DNA from: a virus
Length of the DNA stretch: 24,802 bases
Reading direction: 5' to 3' (one strand)
IMG/VR virus record: IMGVR_UViG_3300012936_000156
Coordinates: 1 to 24,802 of that record
Positions 21,922 to 24,802 of this stretch are shown here, one piece after another (the stretch's first letter is position 1; the number at the start of each line of letters is the position of its first letter). Position numbers and translations under genes: made by a program. Below the pieces are notes generated by a model that was given only the letters and a program-made list of their open reading frames with translations, did not search any database and was not told the origin of the DNA.

Positions 21922-23693
21922 TGATAAAAGTAAAAGATTTAACAGTAAAAAACTTTATGAGTGTGGGTAATCAAACCCAAGCAGTTGACTTTAATAAAGA
22001 ACAACTAACACTCGTGCTTGGTGAAAACTTAGATCAAGGAGGTGATGATTCTGGATCGCGTAACGGTACAGGCAAAACTACGATAATCAATGCATTGTCG
22101 TATGCACTGTATGGCCAAGCATTGACCAACATCAAACGTAACAACCTTATTAACAAAACAAATAGTAAGGGGATGTTGGTCACTTTACACTTTGAAAAGG
22201 ACGGCATTGACTATAGAATTGAGCGTGGACGCTCTCCTAATGTGCTAAAGTTCTTTATCAATGACCAGGAACAAGAGTTGATTGACGAATCTCAAGGTGA
22301 CAGCCGCAAAACACAAGAGACAATCAACAACTTGTTGGGTATGAGTCACGATATGTTCAAACATATCGTGGCTCTAAACACCTATACAGATCCTTTTTTA
22401 AGTATGCGGCAAAATGATCAACGTGCAATTATAGAACAATTACTTGGTATTACTATTTTAACAGAAAAAGCAGAAAATCTAAAAGAACAGATAAAAAATA
22501 CTAAAGAAAAGGTTACAGAAGAAACTGCAAAGATAAATGCACAGCAACAAGCAAACGAAAGAGTTGAAAGTACAATTACAAGTTTGCAAGGAACACAAAG
22601 AGCATGGATAAGCAAAAAAACGCAAGACGTAGAAAAGTTACAAACTGCATTAAATGAATTAGAACACTTAGATATTGATAATGAGCTAGATTCACATGAA
22701 AAACTATCGTCTTGGAGTGAACAAAACAATGCAATTACGGCTCTTAATAAAGAAAAAGGCACATTAGAGTCAGCACTACTACGTGCAAACAAGTCTGTTG
22801 AAAAAGCATCTAAAGATATTGCAAATTTAGATGATGCAACTTGTTACACATGCGGACAAGCATTACATGATGATAAAAAAGCAGAGCTAGAAGCACGTAA
22901 AGCAAAAGAGTTAGCAGATGCAGAAGCATATCAAAAAGAAGTTGCAGATAAACTACAAGAAGTTGTGACTGGATTAAATGAAATTGGTGATATAAATGGC
23001 AGGCCAAATACATTTTATGAAACTGCTAAAGAAGCATACGAACATAGACAAAATGTTGACAGTTTAAAACAAGCACTTCAATCAAAAGAAGCAGAAACTG
23101 ATCCATATGAACAACAAATTAATGAATTAAAACAAACTGCAATACAACAAATTGACTGGACACCTATAAACAGACTAGATGAATTCAAAGAACATCAAGA
23201 ATTTTTACTTAAACTTCTTACAAACAAAGATTCGTTTATACGTAAAAAAATTATAGATCAAAATTTAGCATATCTAAACAATAGACTTACATATTATCTT
23301 GATAAACTTGGATTACCGCATCAAGTAGAGTTTCAAAATGATTTAAGTGTGCAAATTACGCAATTAGGTCAAGACTTAGACTTTGATAACTTATCAAGGG
23401 GTGAGCGTAATAGACTTATACTTGGTATGAGTTTTGCATTCCGTGATGTTTGGGAAAGTTTATATCAGAATATTAATTTATTGTTTATCGACGAACTTAT
23501 TGACAGCGGTATGGATAGTGCAGGTGTTGAACATGCACTTGCTGTAATTAAGAAAATGGGTAGAGAAAGACATAAAAATGTTTTCTTGATATCACACAAA
23601 GACGAACTTATAGGAAGAGTTAATCATTTGATGAAAGTTGTCAAAGAAAATGGCTTTACATCTTATGAAAACGATATAGAGATTGTAGAATGA
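21921..23693 (+). CDS. 46: Recombination endonuclease ATPase subunit gp46 (SbcC/Rad50-like)
   Basis: A 590-residue SMC-type ATPase, partner of gp47 (T4 gp46 is 560). Order of features: N-lobe with Walker A GSRNGTGKTT (K52); coiled-coil arm from about 180 to 300; zinc hook CYTCG (C308, C311); returning coiled coil to about 420; ABC signature LSRGERNRL (491-499); Walker B LLFIDE (D524, E525); D-loop region and H-loop ISHK (H559). Every catalytic element is present. Its stop overlaps the next ATG as ATGA. The first 500 bases are visibly richer in G+C than the rest (see findings). Confidence 0.95.
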   Translation: MIKVKDLTVKNFMSVGNQTQAVDFNKEQLTLVLGENLDQGGDDSGSRNGTGKTTIINALSYALYGQALTNIKRNNLINKTNSKGMLVTLHFEKDGIDYRIERGRSPNVLKFFINDQEQELIDESQGDSRKTQETINNLLGMSHDMFKHIVALNTYTDPFLSMRQNDQRAIIEQLLGITILTEKAENLKEQIKNTKEKVTEETAKINAQQQANERVESTITSLQGTQRAWISKKTQDVEKLQTALNELEHLDIDNELDSHEKLSSWSEQNNAITALNKEKGTLESALLRANKSVEKASKDIANLDDATCYTCGQALHDDKKAELEARKAKELADAEAYQKEVADKLQEVVTGLNEIGDINGRPNTFYETAKEAYEHRQNVDSLKQALQSKEAETDPYEQQINELKQTAIQQIDWTPINRLDEFKEHQEFLLKLLTNKDSFIRKKIIDQNLAYLNNRLTYYLDKLGLPHQVEFQNDLSVQITQLGQDLDFDNLSRGERNRLILGMSFAFRDVWESLYQNINLLFIDELIDSGMDSAGVEHALAVIKKMGRERHKNVFLISHKDELIGRVNHLMKVVKENGFTSYENDIEIVE

Positions 23694-23956
23694 GCAAGGA
23701 CGAAGTAGTTAGTAACTGTGTTGGCGATGATTTCAAACCTATTGATAGGTTATATGGTGATTTGCACGGCAAACATTTCGTTGTAAACAAAGACTTTAGT
23801 ACATATAAAGGCAAAGTCTTTAAGAAAGGCTTACTAGTCAAAGACATTGATGGGAATAGGTTTAGAAGTCATTGTTTTGTTACAGAGGACAATCGTTATT
23901 TTGATAGAACTGGTATGCCAATAGCAAAACCTAATGGATTGATTGGTGATGAGTGA
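23690..23956 (+). CDS. Small conserved-looking protein of unknown function
   Basis: An 88-residue ORF starting at an ATG that overlaps the gp46 stop (ATGA), so it is probably co-translated with gp46. Visible composition: mixed charge, many aromatic residues, a probable beta-rich middle (KHFVVNKDFSTYKGKVFKKG followed by LLVKDIDGNRFRS), no membrane segment and no signal peptide. The regular strand pattern suggests a small SH3-like or OB-like barrel, but no family is recognised. Codon use and tight spacing support that it is real. Confidence 0.7.
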   Translation: MSKDEVVSNCVGDDFKPIDRLYGDLHGKHFVVNKDFSTYKGKVFKKGLLVKDIDGNRFRSHCFVTEDNRYFDRTGMPIAKPNGLIGDE

Positions 23957-24167
23957 TATAAAAGATGATATACATGATCAATTAACAAAGGCTTATTTAG
24001 AATATTTCAAGGCAAACGAAACATACGAAGCAAAAAACTCTGTGCGTACAACAACTGCTGTAAGAAGATGTTTAAGAACTATCAGAACACTAGCAAAGCA
24101 ACGCATGGATCAAATAGCACAAGATCACAAGGCAACTAGAATAACCAAAAAAGACAAAAATTTATAG
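23949..24167 (+). CDS. Small basic helical protein of unknown function
   Basis: 72 residues from the ATG at 23949, which overlaps the end of the upstream gene by 8 bases; in-frame TTG and GTG lie just upstream, but ATG followed by SDIKDD is the better start. The N-terminal half is acidic and helical; the C-terminal half is strongly basic (TAVRRCLRTIRTLAKQRMDQ, then KKDKN at the end). A similar layout occurs in short uncharacterised proteins of marine T4-like phages with an ARKAL...LAK.RR pattern; this is recall only. Nucleic-acid or polymerase contact is possible but unproven. Confidence 0.65.
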   Translation: MSDIKDDIHDQLTKAYLEYFKANETYEAKNSVRTTTAVRRCLRTIRTLAKQRMDQIAQDHKATRITKKDKNL

Positions 24168-24186: not shown

Positions 24187-24621
24187 ATGCAATGGACTTA
24201 TCAAGGAAAAGAAGTTACTGAAATACCAGATAGTATAGAAGGATTCGTATACTTGATAACAAATCTTACCAATAATAAGAAATATATAGGCAAGAAACTA
24301 GCAAAATTCAAAAAAACCCGTCCACCGCTAAAAGGTCGCAAAAACAAGCGTAGATCTAAGGTAGAATCAGATTGGAGAGACTACTGGGGATCATCGGATA
24401 AACTATTAGCAGACGTAGAACAATTAGGCCAAGAAAAATTTACCAGGGAAATACTTTATTATTGTAAAAGTAGAGGCGAATTATCATATTTAGAGGCTAA
24501 AGAACAGTTTGCTCGCGAAGTATTGTTAAAAGACGATTACTACAATGGCATTATTAATGTAAGAGTAGGCGGTTCACAAATTCTTAGAGAAAATTTAAAG
24601 GCACACAAGGACACTGTTTGA
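24187..24621 (+). CDS. GIY-YIG family endonuclease-like protein
   Basis: 144 residues. The GIY-YIG core is visible as GFVYLITNLTNNKKYIGKK (residues 19-37, with Y22 and Y33/G35 as the paired motif), a basic stretch KKTRPPLKGRKNKRR, then SDWRDYWGSS and EAKEQFAREVL, the last providing the likely catalytic Glu of the fold. Stand-alone GIY-YIG proteins in T4-like phages are often homing endonucleases (Seg type), but short single-domain forms like this lack an obvious separate DNA-recognition module, so repair or host-DNA cleavage is equally possible. It sits 19 bases after the preceding gene with no strong Shine-Dalgarno. The 181 bases after its stop are structured and non-coding. Confidence 0.8.
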   Translation: MQWTYQGKEVTEIPDSIEGFVYLITNLTNNKKYIGKKLAKFKKTRPPLKGRKNKRRSKVESDWRDYWGSSDKLLADVEQLGQEKFTREILYYCKSRGELSYLEAKEQFAREVLLKDDYYNGIINVRVGGSQILRENLKAHKDTV

Positions 24622-24802
24622 TCTAGATAGCTAGATCCACCTTGAGTAGCAGGAAACTGCAACAGATCTGGTGAGTCCAACAGGCTGTATGCTACGAAAA
24701 CCCCTTAGCAATAGGAACGAAGCAGGGGATATTACGGTGTAGCGTATATTTTAAGAATATACGGTATAGCGTAAGATGTCGACGTAGGTTGGGAAAGGTC
24801 AG
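24622..24802 (+). ncRNA. Candidate structured RNA of unknown family, continuing past the window edge
   Basis: No open frame of useful length exists here, and the sequence is richer in G and C than its surroundings. Inverted repeats on the plus strand: GATCTAG/CTAGATC (24620-24626 with 24631-24637, loop ATAG); CTAGATC again with GATCTGG (24631-24637 with 24665-24671, one G-U); GCAG-GAAA-CTGC with a GNRA-type loop (24649-24660); GTAGCA/TGCTAC (24646-24651 with 24690-24695); CCCCT/AGGGG (24701-24705 with 24724-24728); CGTATATT/AATATACG (24743-24750 with 24756-24763). Some helices exclude each other. It does not match tRNA, tmRNA, RNase P, hammerhead or glutamine riboswitch patterns that I checked by eye. 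Strand is assumed from the flanking genes. Confidence 0.45.
24733..24773 (+). repeat. Pair of 14-base direct repeats around an 8-bp hairpin
   Basis: TACGGTGTAGCGTA (24733-24746) and TACGGTATAGCGTA (24760-24773) differ at one base and are 27 bases apart. The end of the first and the start of the second contribute to the perfect 8-bp stem CGTATATT/AATATACG with loop TTAAG. The arrangement is part of the candidate structured RNA region. Confidence 0.8.

Follow-up and report, generated by a model that had tools for sequence, protein, structure and literature searches.

Bacterial small RNAs with duplicated seed motifs, e.g. AbcR and RsaE, are small and carry C-rich anti-Shine-Dalgarno seeds. Among the ornate self-assembling RNAs, GOLLD has been described as conserved in its 3′ region and variable in its 5′ region (PMC12286853). 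The Polynucleobacter-1 RNA (RF01718) is listed in PMC2864571. The window, i.e. the whole stretch analyzed here, comprises 24,802 nt of IMG/VR record IMGVR_UViG_3300012936_000156, a linear contig of a T4-like phage. At its end lies the first half of a large structured RNA. A search of open-licence PMC papers yielded no description of this RNA.

The locus behind the SegE-like gene

The window contains, in a row, a gene for a late sigma factor, SbcD/SbcC genes resembling gp47/gp46, and a GIY-YIG gene of the SegE-like type. The GIY-YIG gene (24187–24621, + strand, 144 aa) encodes a product matching Pfam PF19835 (SegE_GIY-YIG, E 9.7e-36) and PHROG homing-endonuclease families. Two small ORFs between gp46 and this gene (23690–23956 and 23943–24167; 88 and 74 aa) gave no PHROG or Pfam matches. 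Downstream of the stop at 24621, the window holds no ORF of 50 aa or more, in agreement with the gene-free gap of 181 bases claimed in a first-pass annotation. The high G+C content noted there was reproduced, with 44.8% in 24622–24802 vs. 33.7% in the whole window; 0.8% of the 181-nt windows reach this value. The claimed folding was borne out by a predicted energy of -61.6 kcal/mol for the strand 24600–24802 (z = -3.67; 0 of 200 shuffles as good), and the named inverted repeats, including a GNRA-capped stem and a C4/G4 stem, are present.

Searches with Rfam 15 at the curated gathering threshold resulted in no match for the window and six homologous loci, and permissive scans gave sub-threshold hits only. 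GOLLD and ROOL covariance models did not match the window or homologous loci either. ARAGORN detected neither tRNA nor tmRNA in the window or the 12 homologous loci scanned. The earlier assignment as an unclassified structured phage RNA holds, given the absence of Rfam matches and the strong covariation described below. Because its base pairing is conserved, the segment is not a decayed remnant of a coding sequence.

Two corrections concern the ends of the RNA, the 5′ part of which was delimited on the + strand at 24609–24802 by pair counts in 17 aligned relatives of the same short (S) form. The start is placed at about 24609, inside the last codons of the GIY-YIG ORF, because GGAC (24609–24612) pairs with GUCC (24675–24678) and shows compensatory changes in relatives. 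This pseudoknot helix is 100% paired, with double-sided changes from GC to AU (6/18) and from CG to UA. The contig end falls inside the RNA: 24784–24802 makes up one side of a stem, the 5′ strand, and the matching 3′ strand is located past the last base, so about 125 nt of the core and a hairpin tail are missing. The suggestion of a larger element was thus confirmed, the window segment representing the 5′ half of a larger RNA.

Within this half, CUGUU (24614–24618) is a weak candidate for a second pseudoknot helix with AACAG (24679–24683), being 86.7% paired without a double-sided change. A hairpin of seven pairs, GAUCUAG/CUAGAUC (24620–24626/24631–24637), is 100% paired with three double-sided changes. 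The following helix (24638–24641 with 24670–24673) shows compensatory AU/GC/UA and CG/UA exchanges. The GNRA-capped stem GCAG-GAAA-CUGC (24649–24660) is replaced by other hairpins in the S-form alignment (A2). A stem of CCCC (24701–24704) and GGGG (24725–24728), with a conserved GGAACGA in its loop, is 86% paired in an alignment that is partly misregistered; in the long (L) form it is 93% paired, three pairs having double changes. After the variable peripheral hairpin P6 (24729–24777), the conserved 3′ core starts at 24784–24802 with the stem strands GUAGGU and GGG and the pseudoknot loop strand GGUCAG. Relatives supply the partners past the contig end, namely ACCUAC, CCC and UCUGAC(Y).

The setting of the RNA is conserved upstream. 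Among the matches listed, 99 of 102 loci with sufficient sequence have the GIY-YIG gene upstream of the RNA in the same orientation; three RNAs lack it. The longest downstream ORF shares the strand of the RNA in 70 of 90 loci and is inverted relative to it in the other 20 (among the matches listed), without the conserved co-directional gene expected of a 5′ leader or riboswitch. The RNA is therefore regarded as free-standing, and the proposed leader of a next gene such as gp45 was abandoned; that reading is also weakened by hairpins, often accompanied by a late-promoter-like box, between RNA and gene. A convincing promoter of its own was not found for the RNA in the window's family. The RNA may thus be cut from the transcript of the upstream operon or function while still part of that mRNA.

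Relatives and conserved fold

Relatives were collected from IMG/VR via the GIY-YIG protein and a DNA pattern of the conserved core, which occurs in at least 120 stretches. At least 103 distinct full-length relatives were obtained, 86 of the L form and 17 of the S form among the matches listed, and the carriers are at least 100 uncultured, mostly marine phages. The window RNA represents the S form, which has its own 5′ pseudoknot; the L form is commoner. From the 5′ end to the second of two heptamers, described below, the RNAs measure 327–423 nt (L) and 283–322 nt (S), followed by a hairpin tail. The core pattern was present in 15 of 21 larger records, in one copy each except for two in one bacterial bin, and lacking in six. 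The tail motif GAGCGNNAGCGA occurs exactly once, at the RNA, in six of ten phage records and not in the other four, several of these records being fragments. Several contigs, including the window, stop inside the most conserved stretch, which fits assembler breaks at sequence shared by co-occurring phages.

The bacterial bin is a Neomarinimicrobiota MAG with the RNA on two contigs (PBPT01000016.1 and PBPT01000082.1). The first reads as T4-like phage sequence, with the same GIY-YIG protein and structural-type proteins, and both are probably misbinned phage contigs. In another record (IMGVR_UViG_3300023105_001938, 1–103879), CATG was observed 8 times vs. 331 expected. All eight sites are located past ~100.3 kb, the first at the RNA. 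Either strong restriction avoidance is combined here with an end acquired by recombination, or the contig is a chimera whose parts meet at the RNA.

Isolate phages yielded no homologue when 50,697 phage records were searched by blastn with the consensus. Since genome surveys annotate proteins, a viral RNA class has escaped notice that is conserved in 100 or more contigs of uncultured phages and absent from the isolates searched.

Mutual information was calculated, without a given structure, for 70 non-redundant L-form sequences. Watson-Crick helices ranked at the top, and a long-range pseudoknot appeared in which the strand preceding AUAAAAAC pairs with the loop that follows AGAGCCC. A second alignment (A1; 33 L-form sequences) was scored against a named structure of 58 pairs, with shuffled sequences and slid partners as controls. 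Standard pairs made up 97.6% of the pair cells, and 28 of the 58 pairs had double changes. Compensatory cells numbered 254 vs. a mean of 80.8 after shuffling and 20–48 after sliding. The helices GGUCAGA/UCUGACY and GGAACC/GGUUCC are nearly invariant and thus beyond the reach of covariation. In the S form (A2), 33 double-change cells were counted vs. 8.7 in shuffled alignments. The compensatory changes that the first-pass annotation had proposed to look for thus lie well above the controls, as in structured non-coding RNAs. Comparison of the sequences shows a conserved pseudoknotted core with interchangeable 5′ domains and a variable peripheral hairpin.

The latter, P6, separates the 5′ half from the 3′ core, and both its length and its sequence differ widely among the RNAs. 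The window has the palindrome TACGGTNTAGCGTA here, with 22-nt arms (24729–24750/24756–24777). Its part 24733–24773, TACGGTNTAGCGTATAT...ATATACGGTNTAGCGTA, had exact matches in 26 IMG/VR contigs, in 25 of them together with this RNA (four known loci and 21 of 22 new ones). Unrelated phages have it as well, Caulobacter phage CcrBL9 within its tRNA array and a Dinoroseobacter phage between genes, and it may be a small mobile palindrome. A role as conserved heart of the RNA was rejected, the palindrome being one among several interchangeable P6 inserts.

Twin heptamers and their putative partner

Just beyond the window end, the relatives carry two direct repeats of 7 nt, usually ACAUGAA, about 50–65 nt apart. 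Each heptamer ends a similar module, GUCUcGGCUG...CUC and GUCUGACUG...AUCU, respectively. Among the matches listed, both copies are identical over 7 nt in 149 of 150 loci (duplicates included), with a differing preceding letter, and in 106 of 107 distinct RNAs. A tree of these 107 distinct RNAs (among the matches listed) was computed with the heptamers left out. About 13 changes of the word fall on it; the two copies switched in concert, apart from a single mismatch. Mutual information between the heptamers reflects identity (A-A, U-U, G-G) and not complementarity. Their predicted accessibility, 0.58 and 0.42 vs. an RNA average of 0.42, is not clearly higher in a prediction made without pseudoknots.

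A third covarying position for the heptamers was not detected within the RNA. Neither this RNA nor the second family described below contains an internal complement, G-U pairs allowed, and no variant-specific complement recurs at one place in the RNA or its flanks. Two candidate partners were rejected. For phage mRNAs, a complementary orthologous target near start codons was absent in ten genomes. For tRNA anticodon loops, the L-form words fit by eye, while AGAUGAU and GAAUGAU of the other family need a pyrimidine at loop position 37. Genome-wide enrichment of the heptamers was not observed. Because the copies change in lockstep and lack a complement in the RNA, its flanks or orthologous gene starts, they most probably have a common partner, external to the RNA.

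An even chance is given to a phage-encoded, free-standing structured RNA of about 290–420 nt plus hairpin tail, bivalent through its heptamers for one trans-acting partner. Such an RNA would be made downstream of the gp47-gp46-SegE-like gene block and would accumulate as RNA instead of acting as a leader. Each heptamer would contact the same partner, for which host RNAs and RNA-binding proteins with sequence specificity are the likeliest candidates, and the RNA could work during infection as bivalent decoy, scaffold or antisense RNA.

Contacts of the heptamers with other subunits of a homo-oligomer, as in an ornate self-assembling RNA like GOLLD or ROOL, are unlikely. The phage origin, several pseudoknots, the conserved 3′ core and the variable 5′ region would suit such an assembly. 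A kissing contact needs a heptamer complement, which the RNA lacks, and most variants are non-palindromic; moreover, the 12 homologous loci scanned are devoid of tRNA genes. It is likewise improbable that the RNA is a 3′-UTR element of the upstream operon, controlling how stable the GIY-YIG mRNA is or how well it is translated, or that it serves a phage RNA-binding protein as operator with two identical sites. Its place behind the GIY-YIG gene, the overlap in the window and the lack of a clear promoter are compatible with both, and lockstep identity suits two sites for one protein. The RNA is larger and more complex in its pseudoknots than usual operators, the three RNAs without the upstream GIY-YIG gene (among the matches listed) do not fit, and part of the related family has a TTGACA-N17-TATATT promoter sequence just before the RNA. 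Catalysis by the RNA, with self-cleavage or self-splicing at two reaction sites that carry the same word, is highly improbable: the compact pseudoknotted core, invariant GGAACGA and GGUUCCGUCUGAC and the duplicated module would fit, while Rfam ribozymes and introns gave no match even at permissive thresholds and an internal guide complementary to the heptamers is absent.

For a bivalent RNA with one outside partner, the co-changing heptamers provide a direct handle on function. The binder must change too, so the partner should be traceable by coevolution or pull-down.

Sister RNAs and known systems

At the corresponding site, the six records without the window-type RNA have a different RNA, and so do many other GIY-YIG loci. 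A second DNA pattern retrieved 76 distinct sister RNAs with covarying helices and, again, two heptamers in lockstep. Their words are GCAUGAU, ACAUGAU, AGAUGAU, AGAUAAU and GAAUGAU. A few pairs are mismatched, some at position 7 only, and some listed mismatches arose from a repeat search on the wrong site. A blastn search with one sister RNA (L054) against the 50,697 phage records gave no homologue, and a 43-nt match of another (L045; E 0.5) was taken as chance. The 5′ domain of the window RNA is homologous to sister 5′ domains (nhmmer E down to 5e-8). Homology between the 3′ domains was not detectable by sequence.

The Polynucleobacter-1 model matches three sister loci at 59–64 bits: L045 (6445–6591), L064 (3096–3242) and L023 (3495–3639). 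All 141 model positions are matched, right after the GIY-YIG gene, and no match was obtained in the window or its RNA-bearing relatives. The model spans the 5′ part only, without the repeat modules. In all three loci, the matching segment opens a longer RNA, which in L045 ends in AGAUGAU twice. Polynucleobacter-1 has been known since 2010, with no function assigned to it, and these phages suggest that here it is the 5′ piece of something longer.

Four further loci (L006, L047, L070 and L069) harbor additional RNA-like segments past the GIY-YIG gene, sharing motifs such as AAAAGA.GTGGG...CCCAC. Near-repeats GGTAATGAC/GGTAATAAC occur in L006 and L047. The TTGACA-N17-TATATT sequence is located directly upstream of the segment in L070.

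Since sister 5′ domains are homologous or RF01718-like while the twin heptamers recur, the locus is read from these sequences as holding modular RNAs, whose 5′ domains are swapped and whose two-heptamer end is kept. A wider proposal has a probability short of even: these modular phage RNAs would make up a new superfamily, whose members recognize their partner through two separate copies of one word of 6–7 nt, coevolving in lockstep with that partner. If true, the recognition logic needs two sites of one RNA to be identical to each other.

Like GOLLD and ROOL, the window RNA is large, pseudoknotted and phage-encoded, with its function unassigned. It differs in its smaller size, the lack of a sequence match and the lack of tRNA genes found nearby. 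To our knowledge, a heptamer pair is not known from GOLLD or ROOL. With the AbcR- and RsaE-type small RNAs it shares two identical short motifs per RNA for the same kind of target. In contrast to their seeds, the phage word is A/U/G-rich, varies between lineages and is placed within a large pseudoknotted RNA.
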